Made by a program: the position numbers and the translations under genes
Shown here: positions 1 to 18,430 of the stretch, one piece after another
Layout of the letters: each line of letters starts with the position of its first letter
How positions within the stretch are numbered: the stretch's first letter is position 1
The notes under the pieces: generated by a model
The model's input: only the letters and a program-made list of their open reading frames with translations
Told to the model about the DNA's origin: nothing
The model's database searches: none
IMG/VR virus record: IMGVR_UViG_3300008952_000148
Span: 1-36,356 of that record
From: a virus
Direction: 5' to 3' (one strand)
DNA length: 36,356 nucleotides

Positions 1-534
1 AGAGCAACCTTTACAGGCACATCAATGACCGTGGACATCGATCAAATAGGTGATACAAATACACTAGCGGCAACAGTGGCTCAAGGTAATAGCACCTCAT
101 TCACAGCAACACACACTGGAGACAGCAACACCACCACCCTAGCTTTAGGGGCTACAGGCGATGTTGCCAATACAGACTTTGATTATGCGGCAACAGGAGA
201 TTCTAATGTGCTAACTGTTACACAGGGAGCAGCAGCCACCGCCACAGCAGGGAACCAAGACATAATAGTAGCGGGTACTTCCAACAATATTAACGCAACT
301 TGTGAAGTAGTAGGCTGTATAAACAATTGGAATGTAGATGGAGATTCAAACGATATTGATACCACACAAACCGGTAATGCAGATCATTCTATAACCGCAG
401 TAATTACAGGAAGTACCAATAATATAGACATAGATCAGACCAATAGCACGGGTTCGGTATCTGATGTGGTGGTTATAACATCGACTACGAGCAGTGGGAC
501 TATAGACATAGACCAATGCACAAGTGGCTGTTAA
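1..534 (+). CDS. curlin-repeat (CsgA/B-like) protein, 5' truncated by window edge
   Basis: The reading frame is open from base 1, so the N-terminus and any signal peptide lie outside the window; the first internal Met is at base 25. The visible part is built from degenerate curlin-type repeats of the form D-Q-x-G-x2-N, for example DIDQIGDTNT, QGNS, HTGDSNT, ATGDSN, QTGNAD, ITGSTNNIDIDQ. Curlin repeats (PF07012) form beta-strand/turn units of secreted functional amyloids such as CsgA and CsgB. It is rich in Thr, Asp, Asn and Ser and poor in Lys/Arg, as expected for an exported repeat protein. Two closely spaced Cys pairs (CEVVGC and the C-terminal CTSGC) are unusual for curlins. The end overlaps the next gene by 19 bp, which suggests translational coupling. 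A role as surface fibre or adhesin subunit is inferred; a phage fibre or beta-solenoid protein is the alternative. Confidence 0.72.
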   Translation, partial: RATFTGTSMTVDIDQIGDTNTLAATVAQGNSTSFTATHTGDSNTTTLALGATGDVANTDFDYAATGDSNVLTVTQGAAATATAGNQDIIVAGTSNNINATCEVVGCINNWNVDGDSNDIDTTQTGNADHSITAVITGSTNNIDIDQTNSTGSVSDVVVITSTTSSGTIDIDQCTSGC

Positions 535-1616
535 TTGCTTTAATTTTTTCATTAAACTCTTATGCAGAGATAGGTGAAATATCGGAATTAAGAGGAAATG
601 GAGAGGTTCTACGAAAAGATCAATCAGATAAACTGCTTGCCGAGACTGCTCTTGGTATTTTTAGCTATGATGATGTGCGCACTGGTAATGGCCGTATTGG
701 CATTACATTTCTTGATTCTACTGTCATTCGTCTCACTGAGCATAGCAAGATTATTATTGATGAGTATATCTATGATCCTGACCCAAGCAAGAGCAAGATG
801 GCGCTCAAGATGGCAAGCGGAACAGCCAGATTTATTACTGGTGCGCTTGGAAAAATAGATAAACAAAACATTAAGATAAGAACCCCCAGTGCCACAGTAG
901 CGGTTAGAGGAACAGACTTTACAACCACCGTTGATGAACTAGGCAGAAGCCTGGTTATATTGCTGCCTAGCCCTGACGGCAGTAGCTCTGGCGAAATTAC
1001 AGTAGAAACAATGGCAGGCATTGAAGTATTGAATCAACCCTTTCAAGCCACAATGGTCAGTATGTCCGAAAGCCCGCCTACAAAACCAGTTACCCTATCG
1101 AACATGACGTTGGGTTTCATAGACAATCTTTTAATAGTCACCCCACCCGATGAGGTACAGCAAGCGGTAGAGGAACAATCACAAAGCTCAACCAATGTAT
1201 TGGATGCTGATTTCTTAGAGGAAAATGACCTGGATGATGACAGTGATTTATCTAAAGACGAGCTACAAGAAGAAATAACAAGACTAGATATAGACTTGTT
1301 AGCGGTTGATTTTCTACAAGACCTACTAGAAATGATTGAAACAGTGGCCGCAGGAGGCAAGGATGACGGAGCCGCAGGAGAGCTAGACGGGGTAAAACTA
1401 GAAGGTATTATTCCTGGGTTTGATCCTAATGCTCAAGTCTATACTTTTGTAGAGGGAGAAATCTTTACCTTGTTCAGACAGGTAGAGAACACAATAGATT
1501 TGGAGCTGGATAAGGCCGGTGGCTATAACATCCAAATCTTATCGGCTGGTAGGCTTATAAATGTTACAGTGAACGGAGGAGGCGAGAATGAGATCGTTAT
1601 TAATCAGTCTGATTAG
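516..1616 (+). CDS. exported FecR-domain protein
   Basis: 366 residues. The N-terminus MHKWLLIALIFSLNSYA followed by EIGE is a clear Sec signal peptide with cleavage near residue 17. Residues about 19-160 fit the FecR domain (PF04773): VRTGNGRIGITFLDST, then an LKMASGTARF-type stretch, then the hallmark TPSATVAVRGTDF at about 123-135. It is not an anti-sigma protein like E. coli FecR, since it lacks the N-terminal cytoplasmic segment; it resembles the stand-alone secreted FecR proteins found beside CHASE2 proteins in bacteria (recalled family knowledge). Residues 215-290 are very acidic and probably disordered. The C-terminus GGENEIVINQSD ends in the same INQSD as the next gene product. The gene overlaps both neighbours (19 and 29 bp). 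A periplasmic or surface sensing/anchoring role with the CHASE2 cyclase is inferred. Confidence 0.82.
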   Translation: MHKWLLIALIFSLNSYAEIGEISELRGNGEVLRKDQSDKLLAETALGIFSYDDVRTGNGRIGITFLDSTVIRLTEHSKIIIDEYIYDPDPSKSKMALKMASGTARFITGALGKIDKQNIKIRTPSATVAVRGTDFTTTVDELGRSLVILLPSPDGSSSGEITVETMAGIEVLNQPFQATMVSMSESPPTKPVTLSNMTLGFIDNLLIVTPPDEVQQAVEEQSQSSTNVLDADFLEENDLDDDSDLSKDELQEEITRLDIDLLAVDFLQDLLEMIETVAAGGKDDGAAGELDGVKLEGIIPGFDPNAQVYTFVEGEIFTLFRQVENTIDLELDKAGGYNIQILSAGRLINVTVNGGGENEIVINQSD

Positions 1617-2301
1617 TTTATCTGCCCTCTGCGCCTATGCGGGAGACAATTCTACCGAGGTTAGAATAAAAGGAAGCTCAACGGTTATCTATATTGATCA
1701 AATAGGTTCGGGCAATACCGCTAGAGTATGGTGCGGAATATCTGAAGGCACTTACACTACCCATAATTGCAGCAATGCAACCATAGACATAGACCAGGAA
1801 GGCACCGGGAATACTGCTAGAGCCTATAGTCAGGTGGCTAACCACACCGGTAATGAGTATAAAATAGATCAAGACGGTAATGATAACTTTGGTTATATAG
1901 ACGCTGATGACGATTCAAATGACATGGATGTAATACAAAACGGCAACGATAATGATGCCGAAATCTACATGCAGGGTGATGACAATGTTTATAAAATCAC
2001 CCAGACAGGCGATGATAAAGAAGGCGAGATAAGGGCTTTTGGTGATGATTCAGAATTTACCATAACTCAATCAGGGACAGGGGAACATTACGCTAAAATA
2101 TATGCCAGCACTTCTGCTGATAATAATGACGCAGAGATTACACAATCAGGGAGTGGCGATCATTACATGAGGCTTAATTTTTATACAGACGACTACACTG
2201 TGGATGCCACACAATCAGGAACAACCAATAAAAGCATTACAGCTACTTATAATTGCAGTACCAACTGTAATAAGACCATCACCATAAATCAAAGTGACTA
2301 G
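1588..2301 (+). CDS. curlin-repeat (CsgA/B-like) secreted protein
   Basis: 237 residues with signal peptide MRSLLISLISLSALCAYA, cleaved before GDNSTEV. The mature part has about nine curlin-like units: IDQIGSGNTA, IDQEGTGNTA, IDQDGNDN, IQNGNDNDA, ITQTGDDKE, ITQSGTGEH, ITQSGSGDH, ATQSGTTNK and the final TITINQSD. The Q-x-G-x2-N-x-A pattern is the core of CsgA/CsgB repeats, so a cross-beta secreted subunit is likely. Two insertions carry Cys pairs (CGISEGTYTTHNC and CSTNC). The start ATG lies inside the end of the FecR gene in another frame (29 bp overlap), and the stop overlaps the GTG start of the cyclase gene by 8 bp, so the cassette is translationally coupled. No csgG/csgE/csgF-like secretion gene is visible, so export beyond the periplasm would rely on the host or on genes outside the window. 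Confidence 0.8.
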   Translation: MRSLLISLISLSALCAYAGDNSTEVRIKGSSTVIYIDQIGSGNTARVWCGISEGTYTTHNCSNATIDIDQEGTGNTARAYSQVANHTGNEYKIDQDGNDNFGYIDADDDSNDMDVIQNGNDNDAEIYMQGDDNVYKITQTGDDKEGEIRAFGDDSEFTITQSGTGEHYAKIYASTSADNNDAEITQSGSGDHYMRLNFYTDDYTVDATQSGTTNKSITATYNCSTNCNKTITINQSD

Positions 2302-4072
2302 GTTTTTCCAACTGTTGGTTATTGTTGTTCTGTTGGGTGTGCCTTTGGTGCAACAATGGATACCCCTTGAAATACTAAAACTCAAGACCTTTGATGCGTT
2401 CGTTACGGAGCAACAATCTTCTGGGTATTTTTCTATATTAAACATTACTGAAGAAGATGTTGAAGTAGAAGGCGGTTATCCGTTTCCCAGAAAACGATTA
2501 GCTGAAATACAAGATGACCTTGTAGCACAAGGCGCATTAGGGGTCGGTTGGGTCATTAGCTTTCCGCAGAAGGATCGCCTTGGTGGCGATCTGGAGTTTG
2601 CTAAGAGTCTTGCGTCTGCGCCTAGTGTGGTTGCAACTTTTGAAAACGATAACGGCACTTACCCCATGACCACGGGCACCGTTATTTTGGGTCAGGATCA
2701 CGGCGGCTTTAAAGCCAAAGGCGTGGTACAAAACATTCCGTTGCTGCGAGAAGCGGCCTATGAAGGGATTGCGGTTGCACCAACCGAGGTTGACCAACTG
2801 GTAAGGCGTATGCCATTATTACTAAGAACCCCTGACGGATGGGTTTCTGCCTACGGCACAGAGGTTCTAAAAGTTTTAACTGGTGCGGACACCTACCTAA
2901 TAAAAACTTCAGAAGCAGGTATACAAGAGATTAGAGTTAAGGGCCTGCCGCCAGTTAAGACCGATACCTTGGGCAGAAAATGGATCAGTTGGGTCAACAC
3001 CCCTGAATTTTCTCTAACAGAGATTAAAAGCACAGAGCTCATTAAAAATCGTTTTGTGTTTGTCGGTGTCACAGCAAAGGGGGTTATGCCTCAAATAGCA
3101 ACGCCTGCGGGTCTTTTAGAACCACACAAAATACAAACAGCGTTGTCTGAAAGCATTTTAATAGAAGACAGTCCGTTAATTCCTGATTATGCGTTGCTCG
3201 TTGAGTTGGGAATATATTTAACCACAACGGTTCTGGTTTGGGTGCTATTAAACTTTTTTGGTGTCACCTGGGGATTAGTCTTCTTTTTAATACTAAATGG
3301 CGCTGTTGCTTATTCAGGGTATTATTTAATTCAGTCCAATTTATTAATTGACGTTACCTGGTCATTAATATCCGGATTTATTACAGGCTCTGTAGCGTTT
3401 TATTTGAATTTTAGAGAGCAGTACAGGCTCAGACAAGAGATTAAAAAGCAGTTTGAACACTACCTTGATCCCAGACAAGTAAAAAAACTACAGGACAACC
3501 CAGAACTGCTTAAATTAGGCGGCGAAAAAAGATACGCAACCTACTTGTTCACCGATGTTAGAGGGTTTACCTCTATGTCTGAGTCGTTGCCACCCGAAGA
3601 TGTGACCTATATTATGAACCGGGCGTTGACGGCACAACAACTATCGGTGCAGAAATACGAAGGCATGGTTGATAAATACATAGGGGATGCAATGATGGCG
3701 ATATTCAACGCACCTTTGGATCAACCGGCCCATGAAAACCTGGCAATTAATTGTGCCTTGGATATTATGAAAAATATGAAAGAGCTAAATAAAGAGCTTA
3801 AAGGTAAAGACTTGCCTCCGGTTGCTATCGGTATCGGTATTAATTCAGGTGAGGCGGTAATTGGCAATATGGGCAGCGATAGTCGGTTTGACTATACGGC
3901 GATTGGCGATGCGGTAAATACGGCAGCACGACTTGAATCGGCGACCAAAGAGGTGGGTGTTGATTTGCTCATAGGCAAAAATACTGCTCAATTCACAAAA
4001 TTTAAGTTAAACTTAATAACAACAATTAAAGTTAAAGGCAAGGCTGATGCCTTGGATGTGTATACGGTATAG
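2294..4072 (+). CDS. CHASE2-domain class III adenylate cyclase, membrane bound
   Basis: 592 residues, GTG start overlapping the previous stop. The order is an N-terminal TM helix (about 5-20), an extracytoplasmic CHASE2 sensor (about 25-285), three TM helices (about 297-320, 323-343, 349-371), a short linker and a C-terminal class III nucleotidyl cyclase domain (about 412-590). This is the standard CHASE2 topology. Catalytic residues are all present: metal-binding D421 (FTDVRGF) and D465 (DKYIGDAMMAIF), adenine-selecting K461, and transition-state N542 and R546 (VNTAAR). Thr535 in DYTAIGD marks the class IIIb subgroup. It should convert ATP to cAMP in response to a periplasmic signal, and acts as a dimer in family members. 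The placement after FecR and curlin proteins suggests it senses surface assembly. Only 7 bp separate it from the lysis cassette, which is remarkable for a signalling enzyme. Confidence 0.92.
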   Translation: MTRFFQLLVIVVLLGVPLVQQWIPLEILKLKTFDAFVTEQQSSGYFSILNITEEDVEVEGGYPFPRKRLAEIQDDLVAQGALGVGWVISFPQKDRLGGDLEFAKSLASAPSVVATFENDNGTYPMTTGTVILGQDHGGFKAKGVVQNIPLLREAAYEGIAVAPTEVDQLVRRMPLLLRTPDGWVSAYGTEVLKVLTGADTYLIKTSEAGIQEIRVKGLPPVKTDTLGRKWISWVNTPEFSLTEIKSTELIKNRFVFVGVTAKGVMPQIATPAGLLEPHKIQTALSESILIEDSPLIPDYALLVELGIYLTTTVLVWVLLNFFGVTWGLVFFLILNGAVAYSGYYLIQSNLLIDVTWSLISGFITGSVAFYLNFREQYRLRQEIKKQFEHYLDPRQVKKLQDNPELLKLGGEKRYATYLFTDVRGFTSMSESLPPEDVTYIMNRALTAQQLSVQKYEGMVDKYIGDAMMAIFNAPLDQPAHENLAINCALDIMKNMKELNKELKGKDLPPVAIGIGINSGEAVIGNMGSDSRFDYTAIGDAVNTAARLESATKEVGVDLLIGKNTAQFTKFKLNLITTIKVKGKADALDVYTV

Positions 4073-4079
4073 GTGAATT

Positions 4080-4475
4080 ATGAGTGATGACCATTATCCT
4101 AGCGGAAGATTTGGCGGCGACATGGATCGCAATGAAGTCGAAATGGACCTTAACAAGTTCATGGCAATGATCGAAGAGATCGGTGGCCTTAAAGACAAGA
4201 TCAGGGAGTTGGAGGACGTTAATAACAATAACCCTTATCAAAAGATTATCTTTGTGGCTCAAGCTGTTGATAGCTGGAGAATCTTTCCTAGAGCCTTTTT
4301 GTCTATTTATATGTACTTGCTGTACTACACAACTTTCTGGTTCATGGATTTACCAGAACCCAGTTTTGAACAATCAGGTTTAATCTCCATTGTTGTCGGC
4401 GCAGGTGCTGCCTGGTTCGGACTCTACGCAGGAACATCAGGGAGTTCAAAGAGCTTTAAAGGTGAAAAAGAATAA
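4080..4475 (+). CDS. small two-TM membrane protein, holin candidate
   Basis: 131 residues. An acidic, amphipathic N-terminal stretch (about 15-48, FMAMIEEIGGLKDKIRELED) looks like a short coiled coil. Two hydrophobic segments follow (about 71-90, AFLSIYMYLLYYTTFWFMDL, and 100-118, LISIVVGAGAAWFGLYAG), then a charged tail GEKE. Two TM helices with a charged tail fit a class II-like holin, and the position directly before an i-spanin/o-spanin pair supports lysis. No homology was tested, and no endolysin is visible in the window, so the holin call rests on topology and context. The start follows the cyclase stop by 7 bp with a weak GGTGA ribosome site. Confidence 0.6.
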   Translation: MSDDHYPSGRFGGDMDRNEVEMDLNKFMAMIEEIGGLKDKIRELEDVNNNNPYQKIIFVAQAVDSWRIFPRAFLSIYMYLLYYTTFWFMDLPEPSFEQSGLISIVVGAGAAWFGLYAGTSGSSKSFKGEKE

Positions 4476-4673: not shown

Positions 4674-5092
4674 AGTTGGCTATAGCCCTGGGTGTGGCTT
4701 TCTTTATATCGGCTTCTATTAATGCGATTATGTTTACTAAATTAGACACAGCAAAAGTTGAGCTACAAACCGCTATTAATAATCAAGCGGTGCTTGAAAG
4801 AACTGTTCAAGAGCAAAATGAACAGATCGTAAAAGCTCTTGAATCGGCAAAAAAGACCCAAGCTCAGATTCAAAATCTGAACTCCCAATACTCTGCAAGC
4901 CAAGCGCAAGTAACAAACTTAAGAAATAAGTTTGCTAAACACAATCTTGAAGGCATGGCTCTAGCTAAGCCTGGATTATTGCAAGGTAAAGTTAATAAGG
5001 CTTCGGCAAGAGTGGTTGAGAACTTGACTACAATAACCCATCCAGATCAATTTGATGAAAAAGCTGCTGATAATACCATTACTACTAATTAA
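4670..5092 (+). CDS. i-spanin-like (Rz-like) inner-membrane protein
   Basis: 140 residues. A single N-terminal TM anchor (residues 2-22, LAIALGVAFFISASINAIMF) is followed by a long heptad-rich, Gln/Ala-rich coiled coil (about 25-90) and a soluble tail. This is the architecture of Rz-type inner-membrane spanin subunits, which bridge the periplasm and fuse inner and outer membranes at the end of lysis. The identity is strengthened by a lipoprotein gene starting inside its 3' end in another frame (38 bp overlap), the classic Rz/Rz1 arrangement. Sequence-level homology was not tested. Confidence 0.72.
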   Translation: MKLAIALGVAFFISASINAIMFTKLDTAKVELQTAINNQAVLERTVQEQNEQIVKALESAKKTQAQIQNLNSQYSASQAQVTNLRNKFAKHNLEGMALAKPGLLQGKVNKASARVVENLTTITHPDQFDEKAADNTITTN

Positions 5093-5441
5093 CGGGTGTG
5101 GCACATATTCACTTTTAGGTGAATTGGCAGACAGACAACCACAAGTTAAGCCTGTGGAAGTGGTTAGCGTGGCAAAAAGAGCGCCGATTTATCATCCACC
5201 ATTGCCAGAAGCTATTGAATCTGCTGCGATTGAGTGGAGAATACTTTCTCCTGATGTGATGCAGGAATACTTAAACGCAATTGAGGCTGGAGAAGAACCG
5301 CGAGTAGCGTATTATGGTCTAACTTCTCAAGGTTATGAGAATTTATCTATGACAATGGGCGAAATTACCCGATACATAGAACAAATCCTTCATGTTGTAG
5401 GGTATTATAGGGAGTTAGACGAAGAAGAGGAAAAAGAATAA
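5055..5441 (+). CDS. o-spanin-like (Rz1-like) outer-membrane lipoprotein
   Basis: 129 residues if read from the upstream TTG at 5052; the ATG at 5055 is the likelier start and gives MKKLLIIPLLLINGCGTYS. LINGC is a lipobox, so the mature protein should begin at the Cys and be acylated. A Pro-containing linker (IYHPPLPEAI, about 47-56) recalls the proline-rich Rz1 linker. The C-terminal half (WRILSPDVMQEYL, YYGLTSQGYENL, EITRYIEQI) looks folded and helical, so the protein is roughly twice as long as lambda Rz1. It starts within the i-spanin gene and its stop abuts the following ATG (TAATGG), so it links lysis and virion genes in one operon. Confidence 0.72.
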   Translation: MKKLLIIPLLLINGCGTYSLLGELADRQPQVKPVEVVSVAKRAPIYHPPLPEAIESAAIEWRILSPDVMQEYLNAIEAGEEPRVAYYGLTSQGYENLSMTMGEITRYIEQILHVVGYYRELDEEEEKE

Positions 5442-7327
5442 TGGCTTACAATAAATTTCAAATGCGTCCAGGGATTAACCGAGAGGGGACCGCCTTTTCA
5501 GCCCAAGGCGGGTGGTTTGACGGCAACCTTGTTCGCTTTAGAAAAGGGTACCCTGAGAAAATAGGGGGTTGGGTCAAAGAACAGGTTGCCACTTATTTAG
5601 GCACTGGTCGTGCTTTACATGCGTGGGTGTCTCTAGCCACCACTAAATATTTATCTGTTGGCACGACGGTAAAATACTATGTTAAAGAAGGGGATAATTT
5701 TTATGATATTACCCCAATAAGAGCTACAACTTCAGCGGGGGACGTCACGTTTTCAGCGAGTAATGGTTCCTCCACTGTCACTGTTGCTGATACTTCTCAC
5801 GGCGCTAGTAAAGGAGATTATGTTACCTATAGCGGAGCCGCTTCATTAGGCGGACTGGTTATTGCCGCAGCACTCAACCAAGAATACTCTATTGATTCAA
5901 TCGTTGACGCCAATAGCTATAAAATTACAGCAAAAGACACAGACGGGGATACGATCACGGCTAATTCCAGTGACTCTGGAAACGGGGGCAGTAGTGTTGT
6001 GGGCGCCTATCAAATCAACGTGGGCTTGGACAATTACGTGTCTGGCTCAGGGTGGAGTGCCGGTCCTTGGGGCGACGGAACCTTTGGTTCTGCTTCAGGA
6101 CTTGCTTTTAATAATCAATTAAGGCTTTGGACACAGGACAATTTTGGAGAAGACCTTATCATTAACCCAAGAGCCGGGGGGATTTTTTATTGGACCGAGA
6201 ACAACGGAACAAGCGTTCGTGCTGTCAGTTTAACCGCTCTAGGGGCCAATTTACCTCCCACATTAGCACTGCAAACTTTGGTTAGTGATATTGACAGACA
6301 TGTTATTTGTCTAGGTGCAGACCCTTTGGATGATGCAGGAGTAGCTAGAACCAGTGCCATTGATCCCATGTTTATTTGTTGGTGCGACCAAGAAAATATT
6401 AATGAATGGGAACCCACTTACACCAACACCGCCGGATCACTAAGACTCTCGGCGGGAACTCAAATAGTGGGGGGACTGCGTTCCCGACAAGAAGTTTTAA
6501 TTTGGACAGACGATGCGCTTTATAATATGCGCTTCATTGGTCCTCCGTATACTTTTGGAGTCAACCTGATTAATCAAGGGATAGGTATGATTTCACCAAA
6601 AGGTGCTATTAATGCACCACCAGGAGTTTTCTGGATGGACCGCTCAGGTTTTTACACCTATACCGGTACTGTTAGCAGGCTCCCCTGCTCGGTGCACGAG
6701 TATGTGTTCACTGACTTTAACCAAGAACAGTCTTTCAAGGTGTTTGCTTTCCTAAACCGTCAGTTTAATGAGGTGGGATGGTTCTATCCTTCCGGCGACT
6801 CTTTAGAAATTGATCGCTATGTGACGTACAACTATCAGGAGAAAGTTTGGGCTTATGGGCAATTAACCCGTTACGCATGGCTGGATGAAGGGGTACAGCC
6901 TTATCCGAGAGCAACCGGAGTAGACACAAGCAATTATGTTTATAAGCATGAAACAGGGAACGATGCAGACGGTTCACCCATGGACAATGTTTATATTGAA
7001 TCCGGTGATTTCGCCTTGGACGGTATAGGCAACACCTATACACAAATACAAAATGCTATACCCGATGTTCGTTTTCTCGGTGACGGTGGCTCGGACCAAG
7101 TGGTTAATTTTGTGTTAAAAACAAGAAATTTTCCTAATGAGACTTTAACAACCAAAAGCACTAATCAAGTAACAGCGAGCACAACTAAAGTTGATCTACG
7201 AGGAAGGGCACGACAAGCAGTGGTTCGCTTAGAGTCTGACGACGATGCGACAACCAATGAAAGGCTTGGGGTTGGTTGGAGGCTCGGGGACATGAGGCTT
7301 AATACTAGGTCTGACGGGCGAAGATAG
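5441..7327 (+). CDS. tail hub / packaged-DNA stabilisation protein (P22 gp10-like)
   Basis: 628 residues. The N-terminus FQMRPGINREGTAFSAQGGW followed by DGNLVRFRKGYPEKIGGW is the recognisable signature of phage stabilisation proteins (PF11134, P22 gp10-like), which plug the portal and form the tail hub of short-tailed phages. Later segments match the same beta-propeller-like style (QNLRLWTQDNFGEDL-type, GGLRSRQEVLIWTDDALYNM, FWMDRSGFYTYTGTV, RYVTYNYQEKVWAYG). Residues about 95-195 are a Ser/Thr/Gly/Asp-rich insertion not expected in the core and may be a small beta-domain for surface display. The gene starts at the o-spanin stop, and its TAG overlaps the next GTG. A short-tailed (podovirus-like) morphology is implied if this call holds. 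Confidence 0.7.
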   Translation: MAYNKFQMRPGINREGTAFSAQGGWFDGNLVRFRKGYPEKIGGWVKEQVATYLGTGRALHAWVSLATTKYLSVGTTVKYYVKEGDNFYDITPIRATTSAGDVTFSASNGSSTVTVADTSHGASKGDYVTYSGAASLGGLVIAAALNQEYSIDSIVDANSYKITAKDTDGDTITANSSDSGNGGSSVVGAYQINVGLDNYVSGSGWSAGPWGDGTFGSASGLAFNNQLRLWTQDNFGEDLIINPRAGGIFYWTENNGTSVRAVSLTALGANLPPTLALQTLVSDIDRHVICLGADPLDDAGVARTSAIDPMFICWCDQENINEWEPTYTNTAGSLRLSAGTQIVGGLRSRQEVLIWTDDALYNMRFIGPPYTFGVNLINQGIGMISPKGAINAPPGVFWMDRSGFYTYTGTVSRLPCSVHEYVFTDFNQEQSFKVFAFLNRQFNEVGWFYPSGDSLEIDRYVTYNYQEKVWAYGQLTRYAWLDEGVQPYPRATGVDTSNYVYKHETGNDADGSPMDNVYIESGDFALDGIGNTYTQIQNAIPDVRFLGDGGSDQVVNFVLKTRNFPNETLTTKSTNQVTASTTKVDLRGRARQAVVRLESDDDATTNERLGVGWRLGDMRLNTRSDGRR

Positions 7328-12952: not shown

Positions 12953-15900
12953 ATGGCTCGAGAAAACCCCTTTTCTGCATGGTTTGAAGACACTCCTCCT
13001 CCAACAACCCCACCCGAAGAAGAAAGAGAAAACCCTTTTTCTGCGTGGTTTGATGATGACCAAAGCATAACTCCAATTACAGAAATGCCTGAAGAAACTT
13101 TGCCTTCCGGTGATCCAAGAGACGAAGGCTTTTTCCCCATATTAGGCAGAACCATTGACGAACTACAAGCAAGTGGTTGGGCAGGGTTACGCGTTCTTGG
13201 AGAAGCAACAGGGTCAGAGAGGCTTATAGAAGTAGGGGATGAGGGAGTTAGGTTTAACGAAAGACAGGTTGCTAAGTACGGCAGGCCTATGCAAGTTGAG
13301 GACTTTGAAGATATAGGGGACCTCGTGCCTTTTATCAAACAAGGGATTGCACAAATCCTTCCCTCCATTGCAATTTCTATGCCGACAGCGATCGCTGGCG
13401 GTAGAGCGGGGGCCACGGCGGGAACCTTTGTTGGAGGAGTCCCGGGAGCTGCGGTTGGTGCGGTTTTAGGTGGTGCTTTAGGCGCTTTCCTTCCTTCTTT
13501 TATACTCAGCACCGGTGAGGTAGATCGTGAGATGAAAGCCAGAGCCGGGGAAGACTTCGAGGATCCCGGTGCAGCGTTCACCGGTGGAGCACTGGTTGGT
13601 GCTCTTGACGTTGCCTCGGTTGCTTTCGGTCTTAAGCCATTGATGCCTGTTATTTTAAAGAAGGCCTCCATTAAAGACATTACCGATAAACTAATTTCCG
13701 AAGGGGTAGAAAAAAGTGTAGCACAGGCTGCTGTTTCTCAAGCCCTTGCCGCTTCTTTAATTGAGGGTAGCACAGAGGCAAGCCAAGAATATATCGAAGA
13801 CGCTATGGCAGAATCAGCAACAGGAATAGCCAGCGAAGAAGGGCAGTTGCAAAGCGCTTTACTCAATGCGTTTTCTTTAGGCGCCATAGGTGGTGTCAGC
13901 ATGGGTGGGGTGTCGGGTTATATCAGCCAAGGGAAAACCAATAAACTTTTACAAAACGAAAAGGAAATTGCTACGCAACTTGAAACCATGGAACAAGAGG
14001 TTCAAGATCAAGTAAACCTTGAGGGTAAGACATGGAAAGACATGAAGTTACGAGAACTAAAAGAAGAGGGTAAAGCAAGAGGGCTCGATCTTGAAAAAGT
14101 AAGAACAAAGAAAGAGGCTATAGAAAAACTCACAAATGACGCTATTACCGAAAAGAAAAAGGACCTTATGTATGCGTACCTCGTTGAAGAGTTTGGCAAC
14201 CTTTCGCCACAAGAAATTGTAGAAAGACAAAAACTTCGGGCAGAACTAGAAGCAATTGCAGAAAGGGGTCCAGAAGGTATTAACGAGCTAATTCTTATAG
14301 CCGAAGGCTCTACCCTGGAAAAGAAGGGCGAAAAAGACATCCCTACAATTGACACTAATCGAAAGCAATCGGTAGGCTCTTTAATTAATCGAATCCTTGA
14401 CCGTCATGCGATAGACAGAAGAGCGGAGGAAGGCAACTCTACGTCCCTTTTGTTTAGGGCCGCTTTGACCAAAGAATATCAAGACAGGAAAAAACTTTTG
14501 TTAAAAGAAAAGCGTCCGGCCCTTGTACAAATGCTTAAGGCCCGAGGACTACGCGCCTCCACAGAAGTGTTTGATAAAAAAGGAAAGGTGATAGGAAAAA
14601 AAGTGGCTACTAATGAACAGATAGTGCAAATGCTTTTAGACCATGATGTTTTTCTTTTTCGACACAAACAAAGAATGGAAAATTATTATGAGGGTAAAGG
14701 CTATAATCGCACAAAACTTTTGCCGTTTACCAAAGGCCGTTATCGGAAAAAAATAGAAAAAGAAGGGCCTAGTCAAAAATACAACATCGTGACAGTTAGG
14801 GAAGGCGATGTTGAGAGAACGACCTGGGGAATAGACGAGACTTGGGAACAGTTTGTTGACAGAGAGACAGGAGAAGCCGGTACTGCTGTGGAGATCACTT
14901 ATGAGGTTGACGGCAAACCCTTGCACGAAGTAATGCCCGAAGGCTCTTCTAATATAAGAAAAGACGACCTTGATTTTGAACAAAGAAACGTGGTGGCTGA
15001 CGAAGAAGGTGTCCTTACAGGGGGCTCAGGTCTTTTTGATAGCTATGAAAAGGCAAAAAGAGATAAGCGTAAAAAAGTGGTGGTCAAAGAGGTAAGACTA
15101 GAGCACAACCCGGATCTTACTCCTCAAGGAGATCCAATAGGCGGAATCATCGGGGCGCTTAGGCATTGGTTTGCTCCTAGTGGTCCTTTGGGGTGGAGCG
15201 GTTTTATGGCAAAGCGTCAAAGAATTGCGAACATCCGTAAAATGAACCAGTTTATAAACCAGGCCGCTAAAAGAACAGAGATGGCTCTCTCCCATTCGGT
15301 GTCTCACGGAGAATACGCGAACGAAGAAATGGCACAAGAGGCATTAAGACGAGCGCTTAACGCAACCACTCTAAGATTTAAGCGTACCACAAAGAACATT
15401 AAGGACGCTGACGGAAACGTTGTTGAAGAGGCCGAAACAGCGGAGGTAGAAAGGGAGCTAGCTGAACGCAGGGAGAGGGTTAAAGCAATAGAAAAAACGC
15501 TGGCTACTTTTGAGGCCCTTTCAGGGGAGGACATTGCTGCTTATGAAGGCCCTAGCCGGGAAACCTGGATTCAATTAAATAAAGAGGAACAAAAACTTTT
15601 GATTACCAGACATATTTTAAAAGGAGATATTTTAGAGCTCGAACAAATACTAGATCCAAAGGCAGTTAAGCTTAATCCGGCTCAAGCGGCCAACCGGCTT
15701 TTGTCGCCGTCTCTCAGAGAACCCTTCCTCGAGATACGTTCTTTTATTGATATGATGAGTGAGCGTTTATTAAGAGAACTTCCTCAAGAACTTCTTCAAA
15801 CCAAAAGAAAAGGAGCGGCTTTAGAAGAGGTAATTAAAGAAAACCTCGGCAATTACATGACGCGTTCTTATAAGATATTTGAAGCGGGTGGTTTCTATGA

Positions 15901-18430
15901 TCCAACAAGTTGGTGGCAAAGAAACCTGCCGACAAAAAGCGCTAAGGAAATAAGGAAAAACATCGCTGCCGTTGAAGAAATGCTTGTTGAAAGAGGTTCT
16001 TCTAGGGAAGCAGCTAAACAAGAGACAAGAAGAATTGCTGCGGGAATGGCCCACCAGCAGCCTATTGAGTCGTTTACTGGGTTGCGTGTATTAGGGAGAG
16101 ACGATCCAGCCTCGACAGGGGAAATCGGGTTTGAGTCTTTGACCAAAGATGTTTTGTTAATAAGGCAAAGAATACCTAAGCCAATAAGGGCTTTAATGGG
16201 AGAGGTGACTAACCCGCTAGAAGCGGCAGCCGTGACCACAGCTAGGCTTTCTGCGCTGCTTGAAAACAATCGTTTTTGGCAGACCTTAGCTGTATTGAAC
16301 GAAGAAGCGGGACAAAGACTTTTTTCTCCTGTGCCTTTAACTGGAGAGCAGCTAGGAAAGGCTCCGGGATGGTTGGGCAAAGACAAGGGGTTTTATTATC
16401 AAGTTAATACAGAGGGCTACAATCCTTTTAATGGAATGTACACAACTAGGGGTGTTGCTGAGGCTTTAGGGCAAATGGGGGCAGCGCAAGAAATGATTAC
16501 CAGTGGTATGAACGCGTCTATTTGGAAAAACCTTGTACTAACACCTAAGGCATGGACACAGCTTGGTAAAATCGTGCTCAGTCCGCCCGCACAAATCAGA
16601 AACTTTATCAGTGCGACCATGTTCGTAATGGGGAATGGACACATCCTAGGAATAGCCAGAAATTTTCCCAAAGCCATGAAAATAATTTCTCACGAGCTCT
16701 GGGAAGGAGGCATTGATTCTCAGGGGCGCCCCATTAGCGCAAGACAAAATGCTCAAAGAACCTATAGGCGCCTACAAGAATTAGGGGTTCTTAACACCAG
16801 TGTCCGCTTAGGAGATGTTTTGAATACGTTTAGGCTGGCTAATTCCGGAATGTTCCAGGAAGCCGGAGACTTTACGGCTATTTTATGGAGCCCTCTCAGG
16901 GACAAATATAAGAGAGCCGAACAGTTTTATACCGCTGCGGATGATTTTTGGAAAATTATTGCGTATTACTCTGAACTACAAAACTTTGAGAAAATATTTA
17001 AAACAGAGGCGGACTACAAGGAAATGCTCGACTGGTCCAGAGAATTGGGTATGCAAGAAACACTAAACAAAAATGATTTTATAGCGGCACGAGAAGAATT
17101 AGCCGCTTTCTATGTTAGACAAACGGTGCCCAACTATGATTATGTGGGAGGTTTTGCTGATATTTTAAGAAGCGGGGTGGGCGCTCCCTTTGGAAACTTT
17201 ATTGCCTTCCCTACAGAGTTAGTTAGAACCAGCGCCAATATCAATGCGCTTGCGTTTAAAGAAATGGGCTCTAATAACTGGCAAATACAAAAACGAGGTG
17301 CTGCGAGAATGGCTGGATACGGTGTCTCGGCTTTCGGTATCGGAGCAGCAGCTCAGGCTATTGGACAAGCAATGCACGACATAGACGACGAAGACCTAGA
17401 GGCAAGTAGGTTTTTCCTTGCAGATTGGGCAAAGAACAACCTGTTAATTCCGATAGAAAAGAAAGATGAAGCAGAGGGTGGTGGTTTTGATTATATTGAT
17501 GGAAGCTATGTTCTTGTTTACGATGATCTTGCAAGGGTTCCTTTTGCCACGCTTCGAGAGTACGAGGAGGGTCGAGAAGAAGGCAGGGGAATTGGGGAAA
17601 GTGCGTCGATTGCCATGGCCAAAACCATAACTGAGTTTATGGAGCCTTATATGGAGCCCAGTATTTTTCATCAGGCCGCTTTAGATGTCCTCCAAAACAG
17701 GAACAGTAACACCGGTAAACCTATCTTTAATCCCGCTAAGAGAGAGGCGCTGCCTTTTAATGGCGCAGCGGAAGAAGCTACAACCTATCTTAAATATTTG
17801 TGGGACAGAACACAGCCTGGAATAACTGCGGCTGGGGGGAAAATACTGCGTGGACAACGAGCAGAGGAACAGGCCTACGATAATTTTGGCAACAAACAAG
17901 AATTAAACGATGCTTGGAAATCTTTTTTTGGCATAAAAGTTAATCGGGTTAATCCTACTTCCAGTTTGAACTTTGCTTTGTCCGATCTTCTTAACCAGAA
18001 AAGGGACGCTAAAAAGATTTTTAGTCGGGTGGCTTATAATCGTGGAGCAGTGACACCACAAGAGCTAGAGTCGGCATGGCTAGAGTCACAGAAAGCAACT
18101 TATTTTATCAATCAGACTATTCATAATACCTTTAAGGCCGCGGAACAACTAAACGCAAATACCGAGGAGTTGGACACCGTGAAAAAAGACCGGTTTGTCA
18201 GTAAAAAAGAAAGAAGAGATTTGATTGAGGAGGGCCTTAATGTTGCTATAAAGCCTTCAAAAACGCTCAAGAAACAATTTGAAACCCGAACGGAACAACT
18301 AGAACGCGACGAAGGGATTCGCTCTATTCGCTTTTGGGACGACAACGCTATGGAAATTATCTACGATTATTTTAATGGGCTTCCTCTTGGTCCTGAGCTT
18401 GATCCTGCGTCTGTTCGAGAAGAAGAATAA
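12953..18430 (+). CDS. giant internal-virion / large polyvalent-type phage protein
   Basis: 1825 residues, the largest gene here. The N-terminus has two copies of RENPFSAWF(E/D)D (residues 3-13 and 25-35) separated by a Pro-rich spacer. A Gly/Ala zipper-like hydrophobic region (about 132-185, including GGVPGAAVGAVLGGALGAFL) could insert in a membrane. Two SAP-like helical motifs (about 361-395 and 519-563, RELKEEGKARG and MLKARG) may contact DNA. The rest is helical and charged with no catalytic signature that I recognise; the C-terminal third resembles the long helical tails of ejection proteins. Size, position at the end of the late operon and membrane-like segment suggest a DNA-ejection protein comparable in role to T7 gp16. 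The last 59 bp overlap the convergent nuclease gene. Confidence 0.72.
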   Translation: MARENPFSAWFEDTPPPTTPPEEERENPFSAWFDDDQSITPITEMPEETLPSGDPRDEGFFPILGRTIDELQASGWAGLRVLGEATGSERLIEVGDEGVRFNERQVAKYGRPMQVEDFEDIGDLVPFIKQGIAQILPSIAISMPTAIAGGRAGATAGTFVGGVPGAAVGAVLGGALGAFLPSFILSTGEVDREMKARAGEDFEDPGAAFTGGALVGALDVASVAFGLKPLMPVILKKASIKDITDKLISEGVEKSVAQAAVSQALAASLIEGSTEASQEYIEDAMAESATGIASEEGQLQSALLNAFSLGAIGGVSMGGVSGYISQGKTNKLLQNEKEIATQLETMEQEVQDQVNLEGKTWKDMKLRELKEEGKARGLDLEKVRTKKEAIEKLTNDAITEKKKDLMYAYLVEEFGNLSPQEIVERQKLRAELEAIAERGPEGINELILIAEGSTLEKKGEKDIPTIDTNRKQSVGSLINRILDRHAIDRRAEEGNSTSLLFRAALTKEYQDRKKLLLKEKRPALVQMLKARGLRASTEVFDKKGKVIGKKVATNEQIVQMLLDHDVFLFRHKQRMENYYEGKGYNRTKLLPFTKGRYRKKIEKEGPSQKYNIVTVREGDVERTTWGIDETWEQFVDRETGEAGTAVEITYEVDGKPLHEVMPEGSSNIRKDDLDFEQRNVVADEEGVLTGGSGLFDSYEKAKRDKRKKVVVKEVRLEHNPDLTPQGDPIGGIIGALRHWFAPSGPLGWSGFMAKRQRIANIRKMNQFINQAAKRTEMALSHSVSHGEYANEEMAQEALRRALNATTLRFKRTTKNIKDADGNVVEEAETAEVERELAERRERVKAIEKTLATFEALSGEDIAAYEGPSRETWIQLNKEEQKLLITRHILKGDILELEQILDPKAVKLNPAQAANRLLSPSLREPFLEIRSFIDMMSERLLRELPQELLQTKRKGAALEEVIKENLGNYMTRSYKIFEAGGFYDPTSWWQRNLPTKSAKEIRKNIAAVEEMLVERGSSREAAKQETRRIAAGMAHQQPIESFTGLRVLGRDDPASTGEIGFESLTKDVLLIRQRIPKPIRALMGEVTNPLEAAAVTTARLSALLENNRFWQTLAVLNEEAGQRLFSPVPLTGEQLGKAPGWLGKDKGFYYQVNTEGYNPFNGMYTTRGVAEALGQMGAAQEMITSGMNASIWKNLVLTPKAWTQLGKIVLSPPAQIRNFISATMFVMGNGHILGIARNFPKAMKIISHELWEGGIDSQGRPISARQNAQRTYRRLQELGVLNTSVRLGDVLNTFRLANSGMFQEAGDFTAILWSPLRDKYKRAEQFYTAADDFWKIIAYYSELQNFEKIFKTEADYKEMLDWSRELGMQETLNKNDFIAAREELAAFYVRQTVPNYDYVGGFADILRSGVGAPFGNFIAFPTELVRTSANINALAFKEMGSNNWQIQKRGAARMAGYGVSAFGIGAAAQAIGQAMHDIDDEDLEASRFFLADWAKNNLLIPIEKKDEAEGGGFDYIDGSYVLVYDDLARVPFATLREYEEGREEGRGIGESASIAMAKTITEFMEPYMEPSIFHQAALDVLQNRNSNTGKPIFNPAKREALPFNGAAEEATTYLKYLWDRTQPGITAAGGKILRGQRAEEQAYDNFGNKQELNDAWKSFFGIKVNRVNPTSSLNFALSDLLNQKRDAKKIFSRVAYNRGAVTPQELESAWLESQKATYFINQTIHNTFKAAEQLNANTEELDTVKKDRFVSKKERRDLIEEGLNVAIKPSKTLKKQFETRTEQLERDEGIRSIRFWDDNAMEIIYDYFNGLPLGPELDPASVREEE

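Follow-up and report, generated by a model that had tools for sequence, protein, structure and literature searches.

The window, as we call the whole stretch of DNA analysed here, is the 36,356-base IMG/VR virus record IMGVR_UViG_3300008952_000148, which has no end repeats. It opens with a cassette of four open reading frames, all on the + strand and each overlapping the next (1-534, 516-1616, 1588-2301 and 2294-4072). The first, whose 5′ end is cut by the window border, encodes a CsgA/B-like curlin-repeat protein (curlin1). It is followed by genes for an exported FecR-domain protein of 366 amino acids, a second curlin-repeat protein of 237 amino acids (curlin2) and a CHASE2-class III adenylate cyclase of 592 amino acids. 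Next on the same strand come a 131-amino-acid protein of a family of unknown function (4080-4475, phrog_10198), an Rz-like inner spanin and an Rz1-like outer spanin of phage lysis (4670-5092, phrog_739, E-value 7e-7; 5052-5441, phrog_812, 7e-11), and a virion structural protein (5441-7327, phrog_3287) that marks the phage structural module downstream. An earlier note, made from the sequence alone, had placed four overlapping genes before holin and spanin genes. The gene calls, the placement and the two spanin-like genes were borne out. The holin was not, as the 131-amino-acid protein matches phrog_10198 and a hydropathy scan found no segment in it at the threshold used; some relatives have a homologue of it ahead of the cassette rather than behind. 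Further along the window, positions 12953-18430 encode an 1825-amino-acid protein whose N-terminal part is related to the virion structural family phrog_6958.

Since the window starts inside curlin1, its left end cuts the cassette, and it lacks csgF and csgG as well as a pair of small membrane genes, all located upstream of curlin1 in relatives. The missing part can be read in a relative, locus L008, whose cyclase is 91% identical to that of the window. There the order is a tail-fibre-like gene, a gene for a 106-amino-acid protein, a 2OG-oxygenase-like gene, a nuclease-like gene, the two small membrane genes (TM1 and TM2), csgF, csgG, curlin1, FecR, curlin2 and cyclase, followed by the 131-amino-acid protein, an HNH-like reading frame, a small reading frame, two spanins and the structural gene; the oxygenase, nuclease and HNH labels were given by eye from the sequence. 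The tail-fibre-like protein (L008:3-2588) contains many TTGxxNxAxGxxAL repeats and probably ends in a C-terminal intramolecular chaperone/peptidase.

Curlin2 matches the Pfam family Curlin_rpt (PF07012, 4e-17) in five stretches. The window copy of curlin1 scores 0.019, below the cut-off, in part because the gene is truncated at its 5′ end; the full-length relative in L008 reaches 7.5e-4, still just under the cut-off. Of the two curlin-repeat proteins claimed in the earlier note, curlin2 thus stands above the Pfam cut-off, and curlin1 is a truncated gene with sub-threshold repeats. Other phage curlin1 proteins (L083:4816-5502 and L082:5107-5826) likewise fall below the cut-off despite curlin-like repeats. 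Full-length relatives of curlin1 are about 227 amino acids long with an N-terminal Sec-type signal sequence, and most podovirus copies carry one or two terminal cysteines (CTSGC, TSC), which may perhaps form a disulfide cap. At the sequence level curlin2 also matches a solved curlin, 8c50 (2e-11), and E. coli CsgA, 8enq (0.0016). Its AlphaFold model has beta strands at regular spacing (pLDDT 83) and gave no Foldseek match in the PDB at E ≤ 0.001; sequence is therefore the basis for calling it a curlin. CsgG (PF03783, 2e-52) and CsgF (PF10614, 4e-11) were identified in L008, outside the window, and CsgG is present in the relatives that reach far enough upstream. The CsgE gate has been reported to be absent from phage modules (PMC9599517). 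Pairwise comparisons with near relatives gave dN/dS ratios of approximately 0.02-0.09 for the curlins, FecR and cyclase, rough values since several dS estimates were saturated, and these indicate purifying selection on all of them.

The FecR protein (516-1616) has a signal-like N-terminal segment and a FecR domain at about residues 52-145 (PF04773, 8e-13). Its AlphaFold model is useful for the FecR domain only, where the fold matches PupR/FecR-type periplasmic structures (1e-4 to 4e-5); the C-terminus has a pLDDT of 40-50. Pfam and hydropathy scans of the protein found no anti-sigma part, no inner transmembrane segment and no other Pfam domain, and this predicted layout does not support the label of iron-dependent regulator. 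At its C-terminus the protein carries a curlin-like strand ending in IVINQSD. An [IV]x[IV]xQ ending was found in 73 of 74 FecR proteins and in 1 of 569 control reading frames; it was also present in 24 of 35 curlin2 and 21 of 57 curlin1 proteins of phages, the sequences counted being related and so not independent events. Profile comparison of the last 60 FecR residues with the curlin2 C-terminus gave scores of 27-29 (E 9e-6 to 5e-4), whereas 60 column-shuffled versions scored at most 17 and unrelated families at most about 13. The tail scored 17 against curlin1 and 20 against curlin2 with its last 40 columns removed. Against bona fide bacterial curlin tails the match was not significant (E 0.027), and the phage FecR proteins are not picked up by Pfam Curlin_rpt. 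The tail could be an artefact of the overlap with the curlin2 gene. This was rejected, as the motif persists in loci without curlin2 (for example L026, L038 and L048): where the cyclase gene directly follows FecR the motif is kept, and gene overlap is therefore no explanation. It appears likely, and because of the weaker bacterial match only likely, that the FecR tail and the curlins share common descent.

The cyclase (2294-4072) contains a CHASE2 domain (PF05226, 5e-24) and a class III catalytic domain (Guanylate_cyc, 7e-19), arranged as an N-terminal transmembrane segment, the CHASE2 domain, predicted to be periplasmic, at least two further transmembrane segments and a cytoplasmic cyclase domain. 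Among 84 cyclase sequences, one of which (L001) duplicates the window, the metal-binding residues D421 and D465 and the purine-binding K461 are invariant, the second purine-binding position, T535, is threonine in 82, and 83 retain the transition-state residues N542 and R546. The enzyme is thus predicted to be active, as the earlier note had concluded from the presence of all catalytic residues. In class III cyclases a lysine and threonine pair denotes class IIIb adenylate cyclases; judged by K461 and T535, the window cyclase is of this type. Its solved relatives are class III cyclases, with bacterial ones ranked first, and in a quick, midpoint-rooted tree the cassette cyclases group together on a single branch (SH-aLRT 99) that excludes the bacterial CHASE2 cyclases. 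A phage-encoded cAMP receptor was considered and rejected, as neither the window nor any of 13 carrier phage records showed a cNMP-binding domain (PF00027); cAMP would therefore need a host receptor.

TM1 and TM2 are tandem small membrane/coiled-coil proteins of about 80-116 amino acids (L008:4539-5110) that precede csgF in phage cassettes extending far enough. They have no Pfam match. The genes upstream of csgF in the published module were labelled histidine kinases (PMC9599517). HATPase_c (PF02518) had no match in the 13 carrier records, some of which are fragments, and was found in 14 of 14 control genomes, so a histidine kinase in the phage module was rejected. The published kinases, matched here by position only, appear to be short membrane proteins lacking a kinase domain.

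In IMG/VR, cyclase relatives turned up in at least 597 stretches, and 80 loci were fetched. In those long enough, csgF, csgG, curlin1, FecR and cyclase occur in a constant order, and curlin2 was recognised in approximately half. The same order is found in the cultured Methylophilales phage Melnitz and Pelagibacter phage HTVC008M, and in L008 and L021 phage genes flank the cassette on both sides. Because many independent viral contigs and cultured phages carry it among phage genes, the cassette is phage DNA, and the earlier view of it as phage cargo holds for contigs from many samples as well as for isolates. The window phage itself resembles HTVC023P-like marine podoviruses, an assignment made on PolA, which is 53.8% identical to that of 023Pt_psg01 and 50.9% to that of Pelagibacter phage HTVC023P; the published screen for this type used a PolA amino-acid similarity of at least 45% (PMC9599517), a range that includes the window protein.

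The earlier note had proposed searching phage and bacterial genomes for the gene order. The order was recovered in many phage loci; the bacterial contigs found with a whole cassette lie in metagenome-assembled genomes (MAGs) and are probably phage. These candidates for a bacterial source (L084, L085, L088 and L103) were rejected on that account. The genome containing L084 has a second cassette contig, L205, with the phage structural gene phrog_3287, and L103 and L204, both candidate phage contigs, carry genes frequent in phages (ClpP-like head protease, glycosyltransferase, radical SAM). One MAG clearly has phage contigs, and the rest are probable phage. In a Rhodobacteraceae MAG (G002, Water_Bin34) we observed four separate phage-type curli cassettes on contigs C129, C173, C200 and C240, likely several phage contigs binned together, which calls for caution over claims of bacterial origin.

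The curli operons of five alphaproteobacterial genomes, all with strong CsgG matches, consist of csgF, csgG and curlins, and profiles detected no FecR, cyclase, TM1 or TM2 in the 19.5-kb region around csgG. Conversely, bacterial FecR genes adjoin CHASE2 cyclase genes (for example L101 and L102), beside which the phage profiles found no curlin genes. In a search of 385 alphaproteobacterial genomes including G002, the listed FecR-profile matches outside G002 do not extend beyond the FecR domain and adjacent sequence. With the curli operons lacking FecR and cyclase and the FecR-CHASE2 pairs lacking curlins, the two halves are seen joined only in phage or phage-like cassettes within the genomes sampled.

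Curli-based adhesion together with cAMP signalling, as the earlier note suggested, remains the natural reading of the predicted proteins. The interpretation we favour, held with slightly more doubt than belief, is that the window carries the 3′ part of a phage type VIII secretion (curli) module in which FecR couples the state of the fibre or its export to cAMP. During infection a CsgG/CsgF pore, encoded just beyond the window in relatives, would export both curlin-repeat proteins, which would assemble into fibres on the infected cell. The FecR protein, periplasmic or surface-located, may dock on the fibre, or on intermediates of export, and also contact CHASE2. The state of fibre or export would in this way set cAMP production by the cytoplasmic class IIIb cyclase, and a host cAMP receptor would read the signal. 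Several findings weigh against such coupling. Curlin2 is dispensable, being absent from many carriers; the FecR tail does not match bacterial curlin tails significantly; the carrier phage records yielded no cAMP receptor; and cells infected with Melnitz showed no clumping (PMC9004378).

The fibre module and the cyclase may instead be independent cargo, a somewhat unlikely reading that has been proposed in part before (PMC7029224, PMC9599517). Fibres would then make cells clump together or prevent superinfection ('sibling capture'), the cyclase would raise cAMP and shift host metabolism, and FecR would be a fibre anchor or a CsgB-like nucleator, roles that its curlin-like tail suits equally well. 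The curlin2 protein of HTVC008M (I899_gp018, L083:6583-7908), annotated as hypothetical, combines curlin repeats with a PA14 domain, which suggests a glycan-binding adhesin on the fibre and fits this reading too. The neighbouring FecR and CHASE2 cyclase genes of bacteria argue against independence, since they adjoin where curlins are lacking and so point to a FecR-CHASE2 partnership. A bolder form of the coupling makes FecR a fibre-tethered sensor in a phage-encoded relay, its curlin-like strand joining the fibre or export path, its FecR domain driving CHASE2 and cAMP signalling fibre assembly within the infected host. In this form we consider the proposal unlikely; if true, it would give a FecR-domain protein a signalling role without anti-sigma function.

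Control of lysis is improbable. The authors of the Melnitz study, who described csgF and csgG in that phage in 2022, proposed a role in lysis (PMC9004378), in which the CsgG pore and its partners, acting as a gated pore or in the manner of a pinholin, would set the moment of release, and the podovirus cassette does lie directly upstream of spanin genes. In HTVC008M and Melnitz, however, it is tail and baseplate genes that follow the cassette, not annotated spanins, and the curlins, needless for a pore alone, appear to be under purifying selection. That paper states that csgA and csgB are lacking, yet two curlin-repeat proteins are annotated in the deposited Melnitz record. We think it very improbable that the curlin-repeat and FecR proteins are fibres or adhesins of the virion: although the podovirus cassettes lie near structural and lysis genes, the signal-like N-termini, the dedicated CsgG/CsgF exporter and the membrane cyclase suggest a place in the envelope of the host. 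Host DNA outside phage borders, the outcome that the earlier note named as its refutation, or an assembly artefact fused to the phage contig, has next to no likelihood; the cassette sits at the contig's left end, but the isolates, the contigs of many samples and the phage flanks of L008 and L021 refute it.

Phages of very abundant ocean bacteria thus carry a multi-gene module for a surface fibre and a second messenger, and the hosts have been reported to lack the curli part of it (PMC9599517, PMC9004378). If the coupling of fibre state to cAMP is true, the phage rewires the infected cell at two points, its envelope and a global regulator. A concrete, testable link from the fibre half to the cAMP half comes from the curlin-like FecR tail, and the kinase and iron-regulator labels of the literature merit re-testing.

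The earlier note did not know the cassette as phage cargo; the module had in fact been published. Genes csgF and csgG were described in pelagimyophages in 2020 (PMC7029224), and HTVC023P-type podoviruses were reported in 2022 to carry a type VIII secretion module with CsgF, CsgG, CsgA/B, FecR, often a second curlin, and adenylate cyclase, which is expressed in metatranscriptomes; the module with FecR and adenylate cyclase also occurs in pelagimyophages (PMC9599517). The window cassette, one more example of a module already known in SAR11 viruses of the same group, agrees with the HTVC023P-type module in phage type, in gene families and in the order csgF-csgG-curlin-FecR-curlin-adenylate cyclase, and differs in being one more member, known from a fragmentary contig. 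The cultured myophages HTVC008M and Melnitz share the homologous order TM1-TM2-csgF-csgG-curlin-FecR-curlin-cyclase, but their FecR, curlin2 and cyclase are only about 29-42% identical, tail genes rather than spanins follow the cassette, and the HTVC008M curlin2 has its PA14 domain. Alphaproteobacterial csg operons share CsgF, CsgG and curlin-repeat proteins with the phage module, several of their curlins ending in a similar strand (ITITQH, VTVTQN), and differ in the four genes undetected within 19.5 kb of csgG in the five genomes. Bacterial FecR-CHASE2 pairs have the same adjoining FecR-domain and CHASE2-class III cyclase genes, but the phage profiles found no curlin genes with them, and the bacterial FecR proteins examined have no curlin-like tail. 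To the published picture the present analysis adds five alphaproteobacterial curli operons without FecR or cyclase, 13 carrier records in which no cAMP receptor was found, short and apparently kinase-less membrane proteins at the positions of the 'histidine kinases', and the curlin-like tail of the phage FecR protein.
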